A stretch of DNA of 64,000 nt. It comes from Aequorivita todarodis (GTDB lineage Bacteria; Bacteroidota; Bacteroidia; Flavobacteriales; Flavobacteriaceae). The notes under the pieces were generated by a model. That model had not been told where the DNA came from. It searched no databases and saw only the letters and a list, made by a program, of their open reading frames with translations. The stretch spans positions 1-64,000 of the forward strand of contig NZ_JAQQTG010000050.1 in assembly GCF_028561335.1 (NCBI RefSeq), read 5' to 3'. Positions 1 to 26,336 of the stretch are shown piece by piece. A program made the position numbers and the translations under genes. Position 1 is the first letter of the stretch; each line of letters opens with the position of its first letter.

Positions 1-28
1 TAAAATACCGCCAGTAAAATATGCGGAA

Positions 29-64
29 TTTAATTCTCTTGGGGCTAGCCCCAAGAGAATTAAA
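29..64. repeat. 36-bp perfect palindrome
   Basis: Bases 29-64 are a perfect inverted repeat with two 18-bp arms and no spacer, centred on GGGGCTAGCCCC (41-52) with AT-rich outer arms. There is no T-tract on either side, so it is not a standard terminator. It lies about 45 bp beyond the premature end of the MotA-like gene and may belong to the sequence that replaced that gene's 3' part. No gene is seen in 1-107. Confidence 0.85.
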
Positions 65-107
65 AATAATAAGTTTGTAGAAATATTAGAAGAATGAACA
101 GTTCTAA

Positions 108-683
108 TTAGGGGAAGCTTACAACACCATTTAGTAACTGTCCGATACTTGCAGAGGAAATTGTTGTAGTCGTTCCTGCGGTTGTTGCAGAAAAATCGAT
201 TCCCCACAAACCAATTATTATCCCAATAAAAGTACCACCTAGTCCTATGTACAATGGAACATTAATAAGGTTTCCAATTTCATTGTCCACCTTCTCAAGA
301 TGTCTTTCGCAGGTATCTTTTAAAATTCCAAAGTCTGCTGATGCTCCTTTGTTTTTACACAAGTAGGCATTAGTAGATTTTATTACCTCTGAAAAGTGGG
401 AATGATTTGCTTTTGTTGAATTGGGAATAACTAAAAGTTCCACCTGTTCGGTGTCCTTTGATTCGTCAATTATTTGAACTTCATTTGAGAGTGAATTCAA
501 GTATTTTTCAAACTGGTCAGGTTCGCTAAGAACTGCTTTGTTTATAAAGAATTTTTTGATTTGTATTTCTTTAAACGAACTTGGAAAAAACCGCTGATAC
601 GACTTTATTTTAAAGAATACGTTGAAAAATACAAATACTTGTAATACAACAAGTGCTAAAATGAATATAATCTCAAATGTCAT
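108..683 (-). CDS. MotA/TolQ/ExbB-like membrane protein, C-terminally truncated
   Basis: A 191-residue membrane protein, third gene of the darT-like operon, starting 11 nt after the NADAR-like stop. Residues 4-25 form an N-terminal membrane helix, a polar region of about 110 residues follows, and a second hydrophobic segment near 140-163 contains YIGLGGTFIGIIIGLWGI, the kind of helix found in MotA/TolQ/ExbB stators such as ZorA of the Zorya defence system. The protein stops just after SIGQLLNGV, where such proteins normally continue into another membrane helix. The sequence beyond the stop does not resume the family in another frame. I infer a gene cut short by recombination. The family call rests on motif resemblance, and whether the remnant works is unknown. 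Confidence 0.55.
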   Translation of the reverse strand: MTFEIIFILALVVLQVFVFFNVFFKIKSYQRFFPSSFKEIQIKKFFINKAVLSEPDQFEKYLNSLSNEVQIIDESKDTEQVELLVIPNSTKANHSHFSEVIKSTNAYLCKNKGASADFGILKDTCERHLEKVDNEIGNLINVPLYIGLGGTFIGIIIGLWGIDFSATTAGTTTTISSASIGQLLNGVVSFP

Positions 684-694
684 GTTCTCTGCTT

Positions 695-1375
695 TTAAAA
701 TAGAGTTGTTTGATTGTCGTCTTTTTTGTTTTGAGTTTTTTTAGTTATAGGTTTAGTTGTTTTCTTTTTAGGCTTTTCTTCCTGTGGATTAAGTTTCCTT
801 TGTTTAAGTTCTCGATACAAGTCGATAGCCTTGGGATAAACACCTTCAACATAAGCCTTTACAAGAAAGGCATGAGAAAGAGGCTTTTTCGGGTTAAGAA
901 CATCACAATTCGTTTCGTAGTCAAGCAAAACAATATCTTCCTTTTGTGATGCTTCTTTAAGTCGTTCAACTATTTCTGAAACTTTGTTTTCTAAAACCCA
1001 TAAATAACTTGGAAGATAAATCTGAATTCGAGCATCAATATAATTAAGTAATTCTTTTCCGTTTACTCCTTTTCTATGCCCCAATGGTTTACCATACTTT
1101 CTGACCGTTCTTTTAATGTCCTTCATTTTGTCATTTTGAAATTTTCCTTCATCAATGTCGGCACTGTCAAAAACCTTTAGCGCTTGCCAAATTCCTTCAA
1201 CCGACTTTGCTGTTCGTTTTTCTGAAAATGGTATAGGAATATCTCCATGAGGATAAAACGGACTTAATTTGAGTAAGTTTGTCGTTGCTTTTGAAGTAAC
1301 ATCAACAATTTTGGCATTCGGATATTTTGCCAATAATGTTTTTTCCTTCTTCTTTTTATTTTCAATGAATATCAT
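695..1375 (-). CDS. NADAR/DUF6939-like protein, probable antitoxin of the DarT-like enzyme
   Basis: This 226-residue soluble protein has features of the NADAR superfamily: FYPHGDIPIPF (40-50), then SVEGIWQALKVFD (58-70) with a candidate catalytic Glu60, then KYGKPLGHRKG near 94-103. I recall the DUF6939 family as having this layout. NADAR enzymes remove ADP-ribose from guanosine in DNA and are known as antitoxins of DarT1 toxins. The C-terminal 30 residues are a Lys-rich tail. The start overlaps the darT-like stop by one nucleotide, so the two are probably translationally coupled, which fits a toxin-antitoxin pair. Function is inferred from motif and context. Confidence 0.65.
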   Translation of the reverse strand: MIFIENKKKKEKTLLAKYPNAKIVDVTSKATTNLLKLSPFYPHGDIPIPFSEKRTAKSVEGIWQALKVFDSADIDEGKFQNDKMKDIKRTVRKYGKPLGHRKGVNGKELLNYIDARIQIYLPSYLWVLENKVSEIVERLKEASQKEDIVLLDYETNCDVLNPKKPLSHAFLVKAYVEGVYPKAIDLYRELKQRKLNPQEEKPKKKTTKPITKKTQNKKDDNQTTLF

Positions 1376-2850
1376 CAGGCAAAATTGTTAATGTTTGTGA
1401 TGTTTTCGAGAGGAATCCAAGTTTTAACAAGCACTTCGGCTTGGTGGGGCTTGAAGTCGGGGTCTTCTCTGCTTACAAATCTTTTCTTCGTTGCTGAAAA
1501 TCTAATTCTTTCTAAGTCGATTAATTCAGTGCCTTTCGAGTGACTTGAATCTGTTGCATTGATGTTACAGAAAATTGTGTTTTCGTAGTACGCAACCTCA
1601 ATATCTACTTCTAAAAGTGCTAGGTTTCTTCCTCTTTTTTCCAACCTATATTGCATTGGATGGTTTGTGCAAAAACTAACTCGCACATAGTCTTGTAAGC
1701 CATAGCGCTTATCTAAATCTCTTGACAAGGTGTCACCTCCTGGAAAATTAATTATTATTCCATTTGAGTCTGCAAAATGCCATGAGTAAAGCCCGTTATT
1801 TTCTTTTATTGATTTTAGGTTATGATAATCAGTAAAATGATAAAAAGCTGTTATCCCATTTTCTTGTAAAACCCTTTGAAATTCTCTCCAATTGAATTTT
1901 TTTCTGAGTAATGCTTTAAGTTTATCTTTCTTTTCGAACTTTTTGGCTTCTTCTATTTTTCTCTTTTCCTCTGCTAGTTCTCTTGCTATTCTTTGTTGCT
2001 CTAATATTCTTTCCTGTTCAATCCGTATTCTTTCTGCTTTTTCTTTTTGTTGCTTTAGTAGTTCAGCTTGTCTTTTTCTGAAAATATCTAACTCTTTTTC
2101 TTTAAGCTTTTCTGTTGCTTTTGCGAGTCGTTCGATTCCTCTTTTATAATCTGGTTTTAAAGATTTTGAAAGTCTATTTATGAGCAATTTGGCATCATTA
2201 AGTTTATTTTGTCCTATGAGTGAATCAAGATTATTGAGTTCTTTCTTAATGTTGCTTTTGTATATCTCACGCTGTTTTTTCTTTTCTTTTTCTCTGTTGC
2301 CGTGTTTTTTTAAAGTAGATTTTTCCTGGAGTAATCTCTCAAGTTGCTTGAAATCTTTGTCAAAAGCTGAAACAGTACAATCTGATAGTTCAATCTTGTC
2401 GTCTATTTTGTTTTTGCTTAGAAGAGAGAACAATGTATCTATTCTATTGTCAAATAAAGAAGTGTCAGGATTAGTAACTTCTTTTATGCTTGATTTCTTT
2501 AAGTCAAGTAATGTCAAGCTTGATTGAAGGAGCTTGATTTCATCTTCTAGTTCATGTAGGTCGTATAATTTCTTTCTCCTCTTTGTTGGTTTTGGTTCAG
2601 AAAGGATTTCAGGCTCTTGTTCAATAACCACCACAATTTGTTTCGCACTTTCAAATTCTATAAGGGGTTTAAGAATTTCTTTTCTTTCTTCGTCATTAGT
2701 AGCATTTGACGCTTTTGTTAGTATTTCCTCTTTGTCTATACCTTTCTCAATAGTTGCCTTAGCGTTATGATACACTTTTATATTAGACTTCTTCTTCTTA
2801 CCTACAAAGTAGATTTTAATAGTTGTCCATATTTTTTTGAGAAACTTCAT
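1375..2850 (-). CDS. coiled-coil DarT-like ADP-ribosyltransferase (DUF4433-type)
   Basis: The C-terminal domain (about 321-491) looks like DarT, which attaches ADP-ribose from NAD+ to bases in single-stranded DNA: FYHFTDYHNLKSIKENNGLY near 336-355 with NAD-site His338, VSFCTNHPMQY near 391-401, and HQAEVLV with presumed catalytic Glu472. Stand-alone DarT proteins are about 200 residues. Here some 320 extra residues precede the domain, and 240-310 are a Lys/Glu/Arg/Gln-rich coiled coil. No signal peptide is seen, though residues 1-20 are basic and amphipathic. It is the first gene of a three-gene operon with the NADAR-like and MotA-like genes. Low GC relative to the core genes suggests acquired DNA. 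Confidence 0.75.
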   Translation of the reverse strand: MKFLKKIWTTIKIYFVGKKKKSNIKVYHNAKATIEKGIDKEEILTKASNATNDEERKEILKPLIEFESAKQIVVVIEQEPEILSEPKPTKRRKKLYDLHELEDEIKLLQSSLTLLDLKKSSIKEVTNPDTSLFDNRIDTLFSLLSKNKIDDKIELSDCTVSAFDKDFKQLERLLQEKSTLKKHGNREKEKKKQREIYKSNIKKELNNLDSLIGQNKLNDAKLLINRLSKSLKPDYKRGIERLAKATEKLKEKELDIFRKRQAELLKQQKEKAERIRIEQERILEQQRIARELAEEKRKIEEAKKFEKKDKLKALLRKKFNWREFQRVLQENGITAFYHFTDYHNLKSIKENNGLYSWHFADSNGIIINFPGGDTLSRDLDKRYGLQDYVRVSFCTNHPMQYRLEKRGRNLALLEVDIEVAYYENTIFCNINATDSSHSKGTELIDLERIRFSATKKRFVSREDPDFKPHQAEVLVKTWIPLENITNINNFA

Positions 2851-3181
2851 TATTCAGGTCGTGTGTCGGGGCAAAAGCAAATATGGTGCAGCTGTGTGTC
2901 GGCTTGTGGGTAGGGTTGCACCTCTTTTGATTTTGCTGAAGCGCGGGCATTCATTTTCATTTCCTCTGTTGTTTTATTGTTCCACTGTCGTCTTTTTGGG
3001 TGAGGCACAATATGCAAATAAAAACTACATACCGCTTATTCCCTTTTATATATTATTGTTTACCTCCAAATATACCAAAAAACAATTCTCTTTTTGAATC
3101 TTGGCAAATCTTGCGTCGCTAAATTAAATCATTGCAAAACCCGCCCCATTTAAGTACCTTCATCTTTTCAAAACCATTCCC
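2851..3181. other. intergenic region between the accessory operon and the core genome
   Basis: A 331-bp gap without a convincing gene. Its first 100 bp are GC-rich against the AT-rich operon beside it and carry two copies of GTGTGTCGG (near 2862 and 2892) and an inverted pair GGTGCA/TGCACC about 24 nt apart. This could be a recombination or attachment site, but no integrase or complete att site is seen. A partial match to the -7 promoter box facing the darT-like gene lies near 2880 and lacks a clear -33 TTG. The rest is AT-rich leader for the gene at 3182. Confidence 0.4.
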
Positions 3182-23081: not shown

Positions 23082-24206
23082 TTAATTGAATATTTTCACA
23101 TACTCAGGAAACCAGTATTGTTTACCGCGTTTAGCGCCAGTTAACTCTTTAATAATTTCCAGTTGCTCAAGTTCTAATATCAATTTATATACTGATGGCA
23201 TCGATAAATTTGTTATTGTTTGGACTTTTTGGGCATCAACCAAAGGATGTTTGTACATATGGTTTATCACGTTTCTTCCATTATTCATCCTGCTTCCTAA
23301 TTTTTGAAGCTTTTCATCTACGTCTTTTTGCAGTTTTAAAATTTGATCAAATGTTTCGATGCCACTTTTAGCTGTTTCAATTACCCCTACAAGGAAGAAT
23401 TTAAACCATTGCTGTATATCGTTTTTCTCCCTAACTTTTGTCAAGTTATCATAATATAGAGTCCTGTTTCGTTCGAAGAAATCGGATAAATATAAAATTG
23501 GTTTTTTCAATATTTTTTTTTCTACCAAATATAAGGTTATCATCAACCTGCCAACCCTTCCGTTACCATCTAAAAACGGATGTATGGTTTCAAACTGATA
23601 ATGAATAAGGGCAATCTTTAATAAGTCTGGAAAAATAACTTCTTGATTGTGTGCGAAATTTTCCAAATCGCCCATTAATTCATTTATTTCAGATTTATTT
23701 GGAGGAATGAACACAGCATCTGAAATTGATGCGCCACCAATCCAATTTTGGCTACTTCTAAATTCACCAGGTATTTTATGTTTACCACGAACTCCTTGAA
23801 GTAGGATTTTATGCGTTTGTTTTATTAATCTTGAGGAAAATGGAATTTCCTCTAACCTTTTAATAGCCGTGTTTAAAGCTTCAATATAATTTTGTACTTC
23901 TTCCCAATCATCGCGCTTCTCTTCAGCAATATCTATTTTCTTTTGTAACGCTTCAGCGATGTTCGTTTTGGTTCCTTCTATTTTGCTCGATTGTGTAGCT
24001 TCCTTTAAAACGTGCATACTGATAAATAAGTCAATATTCGGAATGTAGTCAGAATACATATCCAACCTCCCTAATTGTCTATCTGCTTTACTTAATAAAC
24101 TAATAACCTCTATATCATCAAGTGACCATTGTCTATTAATTTTTTCAGGAAGAAAACTTTTAAAGCTACCTTGACTTATATATGTACCGGAATTAAAGTT
24201 TTTCAT
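23082..24206 (-). CDS. Fic family protein (AMP-transferase type, N-terminally inhibited)
   Basis: A 374-residue Fic protein. The active-site loop HPFLDGNGRVGR holds the catalytic His (His209 from the chosen start). Upstream, SSKIEG matches the (S/T)xxxE(G/N) inhibitory helix, placing it in the class with an N-terminal inhibitory motif. The C-terminal 70 residues resemble a winged helix (KVQTITNLSMPSVYKLILEL). Fic enzymes usually transfer AMP from ATP to proteins. ATG at 24206 is preferred over a TTG five codons upstream because the -7 promoter box overlaps that TTG. Recruited between recX and the three-gene cassette; AT-rich. Confidence 0.92.
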   Translation of the reverse strand: MKNFNSGTYISQGSFKSFLPEKINRQWSLDDIEVISLLSKADRQLGRLDMYSDYIPNIDLFISMHVLKEATQSSKIEGTKTNIAEALQKKIDIAEEKRDDWEEVQNYIEALNTAIKRLEEIPFSSRLIKQTHKILLQGVRGKHKIPGEFRSSQNWIGGASISDAVFIPPNKSEINELMGDLENFAHNQEVIFPDLLKIALIHYQFETIHPFLDGNGRVGRLMITLYLVEKKILKKPILYLSDFFERNRTLYYDNLTKVREKNDIQQWFKFFLVGVIETAKSGIETFDQILKLQKDVDEKLQKLGSRMNNGRNVINHMYKHPLVDAQKVQTITNLSMPSVYKLILELEQLEIIKELTGAKRGKQYWFPEYVKIFN

Positions 24207-24218
24207 CTTGTTTTTAGT

Positions 24219-24249
24219 CAAAGATAGTTCTTATTTAAGAAAATATCAA
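24219..24249 (-). promoter_or_regulatory. fic promoter
   Basis: Minus strand TTG (24249-24247), 20-nt spacer, TATCTTTG (24226-24219). The box ends 12 nt before the chosen ATG, so the transcript would have a very short leader. Confidence 0.7.
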
Positions 24250-24313
24250 AAAAATTAATTAACGTAGAATGTTATTTAAATAAATTCGCTAAAATTAAAT
24301 TAGAAGAGTGGAA

Positions 24314-24376
24314 AAGTGAGTGGGATTTTTAAATGAGATTTTGCTTGGGCACGAGTTGCAAACTCGCGCCAGTGGG
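24314..24376 (+). repeat. direct repeat, copy 2
   Basis: Second copy of the sequence at 22978-23039, with a three-base insertion and one base missing. It contains the recX-like tail codons (GTGAGT...ATTTTTAAATGA) outside any gene, followed by the same CGAGTT/AACTCG hairpin. Confidence 0.85.
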
Positions 24377-24453
24377 GTTGGCAAATCGTTTTTTTTAGCG
24401 TTATTGCTTTCTTAAAACTTGATTAATATTTTAACTAAATTCAAATAAAAACC

Positions 24454-24461
24454 TACATTTG
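24454..24461 (+). promoter_or_regulatory. -7 element before the three-gene cassette
   Basis: TACATTTG matches TAnnTTTG, 25 nt before the first ATG of the cassette. No TTG is found at the expected upstream distance, so the -33 half is weak or absent. Confidence 0.5.
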
Positions 24462-24486
24462 TAAATAAAACCATTTTTAAAATTAA

Positions 24487-25275
24487 ATGTTAGAATTTTT
24501 AAAGCCTATTTCTGAAAATCATTCGATTAGTAGAGCTGTAGCGTCAGTATTTATACCACAAGCTTTTTTAAAACCGCAAGATATCTTTGAAAAAATAAAG
24601 GAAGTTGAGGGTTTTAAAGGTTATCCTAAAAAAGGATTGTTGAAGGCAACAACCATTAATATTAATAATAACAATTTGGGAATTTCTAATGAACAGATTA
24701 GAGGTTTTATATTTGAAAGTTATGACGATAAAGGTTCGATAAATAATGTTTTTAAATTAGAAAACAGTAAAGAAAATCAGTCGATTCTGTCATTAGAGAA
24801 TAGGAAATATAAGGATTGGGAAACGTTTAAAAATCAGTTAGATTCTGATTTGAATTCGTTTTCTAGTATGAATGATTTCTATGTTGAAGCGATTAGTTTA
24901 AATTATAGAGATGAATTTATATGGACTGATAGGAACTCACCTATACCTGTGACTGACATATTTAATATTGATTCAGAGCTTTTAAACAAAAAGTTTTTAT
25001 CTTCTAAAAATGGAACTTTAGTTTTAATTTCTCAAGGAAATGAGGAAGGTGGTTTTACGTATGAAGAAAAAACTGAAATATCTTTCAATAATGATATTAA
25101 AAGAATAATAATTGACCATCAATACGCTCAAAGGTTTGGTGATATAAAATTATTTAGTACCTTAAACGAACATAAGAATTTTAGCTCCCTTTATGATTCA
25201 GCACATTTGGAGAACAAAAAAATTCTTAAAGATATATTGACAGTAGATAGTCAGAATTTAATAAAATTAAAGTAA
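24487..25275 (+). CDS. TIGR04255-like protein, first gene of three-gene cassette
   Basis: A 262-residue soluble protein, with no signal peptide or membrane segment. The order of elements recalls the sporadically distributed TIGR04255 family: SISRAVASVFIP near the N-terminus, LSLENRKYKDWETFKNQL in the middle, then YVEAISLNYRDEFIW, and a C-terminal helix DSAHLENKKILKDIL. No catalytic motif is visible, and the molecular role of the family is unknown to me. The gene is very AT-rich and rich in Asn/Lys/Ser against its neighbours, suggesting transfer. The next gene begins two bases after its stop. Confidence 0.55.
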   Translation: MLEFLKPISENHSISRAVASVFIPQAFLKPQDIFEKIKEVEGFKGYPKKGLLKATTININNNNLGISNEQIRGFIFESYDDKGSINNVFKLENSKENQSILSLENRKYKDWETFKNQLDSDLNSFSSMNDFYVEAISLNYRDEFIWTDRNSPIPVTDIFNIDSELLNKKFLSSKNGTLVLISQGNEEGGFTYEEKTEISFNNDIKRIIIDHQYAQRFGDIKLFSTLNEHKNFSSLYDSAHLENKKILKDILTVDSQNLIKLK

Positions 25276-25277
25276 TT

Positions 25278-25781
25278 ATGGCATTATTAACTAGTTTGTT
25301 TACTTTAAATCCAGAAGTTGAAAAGTTCAGTTTTTTAAATCGAAGCAATATCGAAATGGAAAATATATATCTTGAAGAAGAAGTTGTTGATTTGAAAAAT
25401 ACTTATCACTTTACTGGGATTATAAGTAATGAAAAGGCAGATTTTTTGAAAAGTCAGATTTTAGATTTTTTCAAATCAGCTGATGCAGACGTTAAAATAT
25501 CTGCGGATGTTCTATCACAATGTTATTCTTTTATTGATAATCTTTATCCTAGTGTTTTGGAACAATTAGAAATTGATGATGTATATAGTACCTCTTATGG
25601 AACTGTTGTGTTTGATTGGGAAAAGGATGTGGATAATGTTTTTTCATTAGAAATTGGTGCCAAAGAAATTGGATATTTTATTGAAGTAAACGGAACTGAT
25701 GATAAACAAGTAGATTCATTAATATTAGATGAATCTGAAAATGAATTATTACAAGATTTATCTAGCTTTTTATCAGTTTAA
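25278..25781 (+). CDS. unrecognised protein, second gene of cassette
   Basis: 167 residues, acidic, without signal peptide, membrane helix or recognisable motif. The sequence suggests alternating strands and helices, with a segment GTVVFDWEKDVDNVFSLEIG that looks like an antiparallel sheet. It lies two bases after the first gene and directly abuts the third (TAA then ATG), so the three are surely co-transcribed and probably made in fixed ratio. No function can be assigned from sequence. Confidence that it is a real gene is high from the spacing. Confidence 0.75.
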   Translation: MALLTSLFTLNPEVEKFSFLNRSNIEMENIYLEEEVVDLKNTYHFTGIISNEKADFLKSQILDFFKSADADVKISADVLSQCYSFIDNLYPSVLEQLEIDDVYSTSYGTVVFDWEKDVDNVFSLEIGAKEIGYFIEVNGTDDKQVDSLILDESENELLQDLSSFLSV

Positions 25782-26336
25782 ATGCCCCTACCAATACCAA
25801 AAGAAATTGGCGATGATGAAATTTTGGTTCATTTTATTTTCGACCGAAATTTTAAGAACAAAATCATAACAGAGGAAAAGCTAGTTTCCAAAGATATTTT
25901 TTTACCAAACAAAGGTGGTGTTTCTTTTCAACGAAATTTTTATTGTGAAGAAAGTAAATGTAAAAATTTTGCAAAAGGTTTTGCAATTGGCAAAGTATAT
26001 ATAGGCTTTATTGTTTTTCGAAAATCACACTTTGAAAAAGTAAAACAAGATTATATACTAAATGAGAGAAATGAATTTAAAGCTGATATTTTTTCGACAC
26101 CTTTAGATGAAAACTTCGAATATTTACCTAAAGAGACAGAAGTTTTTATAAATACTCCTGGAAATCCTGCGCACGCTGATTTAGTTTATGAAAATCCTGC
26201 CTTAAAAGGTAATGAAACCCCTAATACTGCAATTAGGTCGTTCTCGAGAAAGCTATCAAAAGATTGTAAACTTATAATTGATACCAACCCAATGTCTGAT
26301 TCCTATGATGATATTGAATTCAAGAAGGTTGTCTGA
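25782..26336 (+). CDS. unrecognised protein, third gene of cassette
   Basis: 184 residues, no signal or membrane segment. Visible features: ILVHFIFDRNF near the N-terminus, a Cys pair in CEESKCKNFAKGF that might bind metal or be structural, and GNPAHADLVYENP, a short His-Ala-Asp segment I associate with small uncharacterised proteins near TIGR04255 genes, without certainty. Abuts the second gene without a gap. Convergent with the flotillin gene 62 bp downstream, with no clear terminator between. Real gene likely; function unknown. Confidence 0.75.
   Translation: MPLPIPKEIGDDEILVHFIFDRNFKNKIITEEKLVSKDIFLPNKGGVSFQRNFYCEESKCKNFAKGFAIGKVYIGFIVFRKSHFEKVKQDYILNERNEFKADIFSTPLDENFEYLPKETEVFINTPGNPAHADLVYENPALKGNETPNTAIRSFSRKLSKDCKLIIDTNPMSDSYDDIEFKKVV

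Follow-up and report, generated by a model that had tools for sequence, protein, structure and literature searches.

A conserved four-gene operon in Bacteroidota sets a DarT-type toxin gene and its NADAR-related partner beside Zorya-like motor genes

What does a membrane motor gene do in one operon with a predicted DNA-modifying toxin and an enzyme that may undo the modification? This question is raised by a locus at the end of contig C46 of Aequorivita todarodis (126,081 bases; genome of 3.33 Mb in 51 contigs), of which we analyzed bases 1-64000, here called the window. A preliminary description of this stretch had proposed an operon of three genes for a DarT-like toxin, a NADAR-like reversal enzyme and a MotA/ExbB-like membrane protein. 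The trio is real, but the operon has a fourth gene, zorB-like, which lies on another contig (C29). That the four-gene architecture (darT, DUF6939, zorA, zorB) is real and conserved is nearly certain, and it apparently represents an undescribed Zorya-like variant with a DarT/NADAR-type toxin-antitoxin pair as the presumed effector.

We searched genome contigs with an alignment of DUF6939, the family of the second protein, using one genome per species (84,980 species). This confirmed 229 relatives, of which the best 80 were kept. A scan of viral contigs added five loci, giving 85 loci, or 86 with the window. DarT was found at 35 of these, ZorA at 16 and ZorB at 15 (with the ZorB of the window genome on C29). 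The preliminary description had named a neighbor survey as the check on the linkage of the membrane gene, and the linkage held: ZorA stood with DarT and DUF6939 at 16 of the 86 loci, window counted, and at none of the 51 loci without DarT, a count that is an upper limit because some loci end at contig edges. For 16 of 35 DarT loci against 0 of 51 others, Fisher's test gave P = 4.2e-8, with kinship ignored and the near-copies L070/L071 and L022/L023 among the rows. Eleven other DarT loci had TerY and PP2C matches, counted with profiles grown from single L022 proteins, and eight had none of these partners. Complete sets were present in 15 of the 85 relatives. All 15 were ordered darT, DUF6939, zorA, zorB on one strand, with gaps or overlaps below 25 bases, the exceptions being two larger spacings (75 and 88 bases) and an overlap called at 73 bases, and no alternative gene order occurred among the 16 ZorA loci. 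Chance adjacency of the genes was ruled out by the survey.

The source records of the operons were titled Chitinophagaceae, Crocinitomicaceae, Prevotellaceae, Bacteroides, Parabacteroides, Symbiothrix and others; the carriers are several gut and environmental Bacteroidota. One more four-gene set seems to lie on what is listed as a plasmid of Parabacteroides distasonis; in this record, tblastn located DUF6939 and ZorB, with a DUF4433 gene before them and a gene of 498 amino acids between them; three of these four genes are annotated "hypothetical protein". Phage records contained no match to DUF6939 or ZorA, and the ZorA scan of viral contigs returned L096 alone, which was already in the survey.

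In the window, the three genes lie on the minus strand where the preliminary description had placed them (Table 1). They are as tightly packed and AT-rich as it had said: darT and the DUF6939 gene overlap by 1 base, 11 bases separate the latter from the third gene, and the G+C content is 0.337 over positions 1-2000. Its assignment of a DarT domain was likewise upheld, with PF14487 matching residues 337-487 of the first protein. The proposed motif residues H338 and E472 are both kept in a Fibrella homolog, and all 27 DarT domains in the alignment carry the equivalent H and E. Compared with the PDB, the profile of these 27 domains matched C7 DarT1 (E. coli, 3.2e-12), 7OMU (1.4e-10), 7OMV (6.6e-7) and 7YK3 (0.0056). 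As several solved DarT structures were matched, base specificity cannot be assigned. The window protein scored below the cut-off of the NCBIfam model toxin_DarT (37.9 of 150 bits), and the DarT search of this genome found darT as a sole copy.

The third gene is broken. Its linkage to the toxin genes, as a MotA/ExbB-like gene, stood as described, but an insertion element supplies its final codons and its stop (at 108). The rest of zorA was found near the start of contig C29 (L104:127-1070, plus strand), beginning at residue 178 of the aligned L016 homolog, and is followed there by an intact zorB-like gene of 223 amino acids. Fifteen intact ZorA relatives measure 454-526 amino acids. A natural short form of 191 amino acids was ruled out, since the remainder and zorB were located on C29. 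The 12-base inverted end TGTAAGCTTCCC is present at both the C46 and C29 ends, and GTGT stands in both flanks as a target duplication. Therefore, we read the split from these two separate contig ends as one simple insertion. Window bases 1 to 123-127 are repeated at five other contigs (C8, C31, C33, C37 and C39). The element end on the C29 side occurs at five further places and encodes MRRSKFSPQQIAKILKEFDN, which we take to be the start of an IS3-type OrfA. The interior of the element was not found in the assembly, no separate search for it having been made. The window operon is an interrupted remnant that has kept its toxin and reversal genes with a broken motor, and this copy probably cannot respond.

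The element apparently has at least six copies, which stand at contig ends in the assembly (C8, C13, C23, C26, C29, C31, C33, C35, C37, C39, C49). Apparent interruptions of darT were also seen in two other operons: pieces lie in L059:6747-7987, and a transposase-like gene pair precedes darT in L070:4707-7998, where one gene of the pair matches rve just under the cut-off (1.9e-7). With the window included, 3 of the 16 operons look damaged.

Table 1. Features of the darT locus in the window (positions count from the first base of the window)
Feature	Positions	Strand	Basis
darT, 491 amino acids: N-terminal extension (about residues 1-315) and DarT ADP-ribosyltransferase domain	1375..2850	-	PF14487 2.4e-23; PADLOC DarT 1.2e-15
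DarT domain of darT (residues 316-491)	1378..1905	-	27-domain profile against C7 DarT1, 3.2e-12
DUF6939 protein, NADAR-like, 226 amino acids; predicted ADP-ribosyl-nucleobase hydrolase and antitoxin	695..1375	-	PF22075 2.9e-78
zorA-like gene, 5' part only, 191 amino acids (about residues 1-186 native)	108..683	-	90% identity to intact L016 ZorA over residues 1-186
Leader 5' of darT, kept in L016; near the edge of the shared segment	2851..3020	-	blocks from 3000 and 2900: 82% and 93% identity
Repeated insertion element end, cutting zorA	1..123	.	inverted-repeat end 112-123; 36-base perfect palindrome (own complement) 29-64

The presence of zorB makes the parallel with Zorya much stronger. Three Zorya ZorB chains in the PDB were matched by a profile of 15 ZorB sequences, namely 8VVN (6.7e-11), 8QYD (2.9e-7) and 8VVI (3.7e-5); the 8QYD chain is shared with 8QYH, labeled anti-phage ZorAB. 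The same search returned no match to flagellar MotB at E ≤ 0.1. In the available portion of one study, 8VVN and 8VVI are given as type I and type II ZorAB, and residue D24 of ZorB as required for defense (PMC11890865). Our ZorB proteins have one membrane segment, with D18 and an LSxxRA motif invariant in 15 of 15 sequences, and D18 aligns with D24 of 8VVN. Their Pfam match to OmpA is sub-threshold (0.0044). The profile also matched the ZorB of all eight ZorB1-scoring Bacteroidota loci with which it was compared (1.1e-4 to 4.1e-8, E-values over 71 proteins), which were chosen from 15 strong scorers of the ZorB1 model and whose class rests on that score and not on ZorC/ZorD content. A gene of about 200-280 amino acids follows ZorB in these eight loci. 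The evidence for ZorA is of another kind: the broken window gene had sub-threshold matches only, among them TolQ (0.0013) and ZorA (0.0063), while the PADLOC ZorA model matched L016 at 7.7e-7 and L056 at 6.4e-9. The ZorA proteins have three predicted membrane segments and about 290 further residues.

The second protein had been described as NADAR-type. A profile relation to DarT1-type NADAR was recovered, but Pfam places the protein in DUF6939 (Table 1), and NADAR-DarT1 (PF22397) is sub-threshold at 14.5 bits for a cut-off of 27 (E = 0.024). The NADAR-DarT1 model matched 39 of 54 aligned DUF6939 members at E ≤ 1, the best at 7.5e-7, and hhalign of DUF6939 against seven DarT1-type NADARs gave E = 2e-5 with a probability of 77%. 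E60, which the preliminary description had singled out, is invariant in all 54 aligned members, window protein included, as are K67 and D152. The hhalign alignment puts E60 and K67 on the NADAR E and K that we equate, by our reading of the motif, with E88 and K95 of C7. The catalytic residues of the C7 NADAR are E88, K95 and D171 in the available portion of the source (PMC11543638). Together, the profile comparisons indicate that DUF6939 is homologous to DarT1-type NADAR. An ordinary NADAR recognizable by sequence was ruled out, as PDB searches matched no solved NADAR; two RNF8 chains in the DUF6939 search (0.0057 and 0.009) were taken as chance. No paper on DUF6939 was found in the literature searched. 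In Tenacibaculum-type genomes (L013:5721-13312 and L014), DUF6939 without DarT lies in a cluster with, as judged by eye, NAD-salvage, ADP-ribosylglycohydrolase, NADAR, sirtuin-like, macrodomain and KptA-like genes.

The N-terminal part of DarT differs with the company the gene keeps. In the window protein, its approximately 315 residues are rich in K and E (by eye). Judged by hydrophobicity, an N-terminal membrane segment is present in 7 of the 8 DarT proteins that come without ZorAB and TerY (best 19-residue mean 1.08-1.47; only L074, at 0.60, lacks it), and in 0 of 13 ZorAB-linked proteins with a complete N-terminus (0.37-0.88). The latter start with a short hydrophobic-aromatic stretch, e.g. 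MKFLKKIWTTIKIYF. A basic amphipathic helix is likely at the N-terminus in the window, L016-L018, L041 and L058, as judged from sequence, and is less clear in the remaining ZorAB-linked proteins. At seven loci (L020, L024, L040, L047, L052, L064, L094), a DarT gene with an N-terminal membrane segment is followed by DUF6939, with no motor or TerY matches; this type is possibly a membrane-anchored form of DarT.

In the TerY class, the DarT domain stands at the N-terminus of the protein, and the remainder of the one protein tested, from L022, is TerY (5.8e-53). These 11 loci (L021, L022, L023, L025, L027, L028, L029, L031, L034, L045 and L048) carry DUF6939, a protein of about 480 amino acids that starts with the DarT domain, and a PP2C match, with a kinase match at 9 of the 11, again by a profile grown from a single L022 protein. 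The families at L022 (DarT, TerY at 5.8e-53, PP2C at 2.5e-13, STK_OB at 8.8e-76) make up a TerY-P triad armed with DarT. The DarT/DUF6939 pair of toxin and eraser therefore appears in at least three different couplings.

Parts of the operon appear to have separate histories. We compared the window with L016, its closest operon, by nucleotide identity per 100-base block between positions 3000 and 124. Identity was 74-94% in the leader, the N-terminal part of darT, DUF6939 and zorA, and fell to 49-55% in the four blocks, read down from 1800, 1700, 1600 and 1500, that cover the catalytic part of DarT, where roughly the last 130 residues of the protein diverge sharply. Upstream of the leader, the blocks from 3300 to 3100 showed 36-49%. 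The DarT proteins of L016 and L018 are alike in the catalytic part (70-80% protein identity) and unlike in the N-terminal part (22-52%), and L017 and L018 show the reverse pattern.

The trees separate the genes in the same manner (34 of 35 DarT sequences, with the short L059 left out; 78 of 80 DUF6939 sequences; L071 left out of the ZorA and ZorB alignments). DUF6939 groups the window with L016, L017 and L018 (support 100/99), L041 with L058 (100/98), and L049 with L056, L070 and L071 (100/93). Three matching groups are present in the ZorA tree (93/95, 100/98 and, without L071, 100/99), although the order among L049, L056 and L070 differs. The DarT-domain tree breaks all three groups, and forcing them together in it was rejected by the approximately unbiased test (P = 7e-9, 9e-7 and 0.009, for groups that were named after the trees were seen). 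Because the DarT tree conflicts with the largely agreeing ZorA and DUF6939 trees, we conclude that, by these sequences, the catalytic domain of DarT has passed from one operon to another, set in a scaffold that is more stable. The zorB copy on C29 and that of L016 are identical in the first 45 alignment columns, with a nucleotide identity of 40-53% per 100 bases in the periplasmic half; this sharp identity step suggests that the sensor half, too, has been exchanged.

How would these four proteins work together? We consider it moderately probable that they form a probably anti-phage operon, in which ZorAB would recruit or activate DarT on infection while DUF6939 would clear background ADP-ribosylation. 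ZorA and ZorB would form an ion-driven motor in the inner membrane, and the periplasmic OmpA-like half of ZorB would sense damage to the cell wall or envelope at phage entry. Ion flow would then move ZorA, whose long cytoplasmic tail would gather or activate DarT through the N-terminal extension of the toxin. DarT would ADP-ribosylate DNA near the infection site, so that phage replication is blocked or the cell arrested. DUF6939 would strip ADP-ribose from bases and let the cell tolerate background toxin, and only a local, motor-driven burst would override it. We infer complex formation, sensing, recruitment, the DNA substrate, antitoxin activity and defense alike. For known Zorya, the available portion of the source proposes that ZorAB senses envelope damage via ZorB and recruits ZorE or ZorCD via the ZorA tail (PMC11890865). 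DarT with DUF6939 as a safety eraser in place of ZorE or ZorCD would be the simplest extension of that scheme.

Several points weigh against this reading, which is drawn from genes and sequences. The ZorA assignment cannot be firm at such divergence. The ZorA alignment A4 matched no ZorA chain in the PDB at E ≤ 0.1, the alignment A6 reached 8QYH at 0.0034, ranked below four unrelated proteins, and the A4 profile gave 0 matches at E ≤ 0.01 to the ZorA genes of the eight ZorB1 loci in the 71-protein set; its place in the operon, its three membrane segments and its long C-terminal region are in keeping with the assignment. The PADLOC ZorB1 model (PDLC00609) is not specific, since at E ≤ 1e-8 it matched 336 of 395 genomes of the phylum and 4 of 14 controls, apparently through MotB/OmpA-like proteins. 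We therefore gave its E-values little weight, dropped them as proof of ZorB identity and used the PDB profile instead. A clear gap sets its 15 strong matches (at worst 3.3e-37) apart from all others (at best 1.0e-19). For DUF6939, the aspartate aligned with the one that we equate with D171 is D158, which is D in 42 of 54 members. The substrate of DarT may be other bases or nucleic acids. Further, Zorya II is triggered by the phage protein Ocr, according to the available portion of the literature, and envelope sensing thus need not be the trigger. Finally, a related ZorB was found in 5 of 395 genomes with adjoining ZorA-like genes and no DarT or DUF6939 in the fetched stretches. The motor type is thus not exclusive to DarT, and four of these five ZorAB relatives stand beside a protein of 1126-1157 amino acids.

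At these four loci (L120, L121, L122 and L124), a second gene accompanies the large protein, which has a weak FtsA match in Pfam at L120 (0.0022) and none at L124. Pieces that look tubulin-like by eye take its place at L123.

The motors without DarT, together with the DarT-DUF6939 pairs without ZorAB at 19 of 35 DarT loci, are what would be expected if the toxin-antitoxin pair and the motor were two independent defense units that merely travel together on mobile elements, and integrase or relaxase genes do lie near 4 of the 6 operons whose neighbors were tested (L017, L018, L056, L070). The order and strand are nevertheless fixed in all 15 complete sets with tight spacing, none of the 16 ZorA loci has another order, and most groupings are common to the trees of ZorA and DUF6939. 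We regard such a pair of independent units as fairly unlikely.

The distribution of the membrane segment bears on another possibility, that ZorAB is a brake or second antitoxin which holds DarT inactive at the membrane and frees it when the potential or the motor fails. ZorAB could stand in for a membrane anchor: 7 of the 8 DarT proteins that lack both ZorAB and TerY have such a segment, against 0 of the 13 complete ones linked to ZorAB. The A. todarodis genome is a natural motor knock-out, however, with open reading frames for darT and DUF6939 next to a broken zorA, and as one genome it argues weakly against a need for ZorAB in restraining the toxin. The preliminary description had offered, as one speculative reading, a membrane sensor that frees the toxin on infection. 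On this ground and by analogy with ZorAB and ZorE (PMC11890865), recruitment or activation by the motor would fit better than release from inhibition, and we regard a brake as quite unlikely. That ZorAB itself kills by ion leak, with DarT/DUF6939 modulating it or marking the target that opens it, is highly improbable: a proton-channel abortive infection proposal for Zorya is repeated in the available portion of the PADLOC paper (PMC8565338), but effector roles are given to ZorE and ZorCD, and that of sensor and recruiter to ZorAB, in the portion available of PMC11890865, and the catalytic residues of DarT, itself an enzyme, are conserved.

Compared with known systems, what the operon has in common with Zorya I, II and III is a zorA-zorB pair, with cytoplasmic partner genes in the same operon. 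Its ZorA-like protein, similar to Zorya ZorA only weakly in sequence, is of the ExbB/MotA kind and has a long region in the cytoplasm; its ZorB-like protein resembles MotB and has an OmpA-like part in the periplasm. It differs in that the partners are DarT and DUF6939 instead of ZorC/ZorD, ZorE or ZorF/ZorG, none of which was seen among the gene calls neighboring the 15 complete operons (the ZorC-ZorG models were not run on every neighbor), and in that it is known here from genes alone. With DarTG1, it has in common a DarT gene directly followed by one for a predicted NADAR-type hydrolase, and of the solved structures it is C7 DarT1 that its DarT profile matches best. In four plasmid records, however, the annotated DarT has 173-209 amino acids, whereas the protein here has 491 with its N-terminal extension; the partner belongs to DUF6939, distant from NADAR-DarT1, and two motor genes are added. 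Of the TerY-P triad (TerY, PP2C, STK_OB), matches to TerY and PP2C accompany DarT and DUF6939 at 11 of the 86 loci, at nine of them together with a kinase match; this sister arrangement has no motor, and its coupling would be by phosphorylation. Flagellar MotAB, ExbBD and TolQR belong to the same general class of motor proteins, but the ZorB profile matches Zorya ZorB and not MotB (E ≤ 0.1), and toxin genes are linked here. In agreement with the preliminary description, which knew of no system joining its three genes, no description of the combination of darT, DUF6939, zorA and zorB was found in the literature searched, although an earlier mention is possible; literature covering both Zorya and DarTG treats them, in its available portions, separately.

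Elsewhere in the window, three plus-strand genes of no assigned function (24487-26336) lie in a region with a G+C content of 0.274 (24001-26000) and adjoin a gene that looks Fic-like by eye (23082-24221). Rfam and tRNA scans of the window found nothing.

How the infection signal passes from ZorAB to its cytoplasmic partners is not settled. The presumed effector of this operon is an enzyme with a measurable product, and the gene for its eraser lies next to its own, so that triggering would be readable as DNA ADP-ribosylation. If our reading is true, a membrane motor can control a toxin-antitoxin pair, which then need not depend on the antitoxin being lost, and DUF6939 gains a likely function. 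The exchange of toxin and sensor domains predicts which parts meet the phage, which is testable. We tentatively suggest, as a possibility short of an expectation, that Zorya-type motors are a general, interchangeable trigger, wired here to a DNA-ADP-ribosylating toxin with its own eraser; that the DarT catalytic and ZorB sensing domains may be swapped as cassettes in an arms race on a steadier ZorA-DUF6939 scaffold; and that DUF6939 may protect against very different DarT domains.

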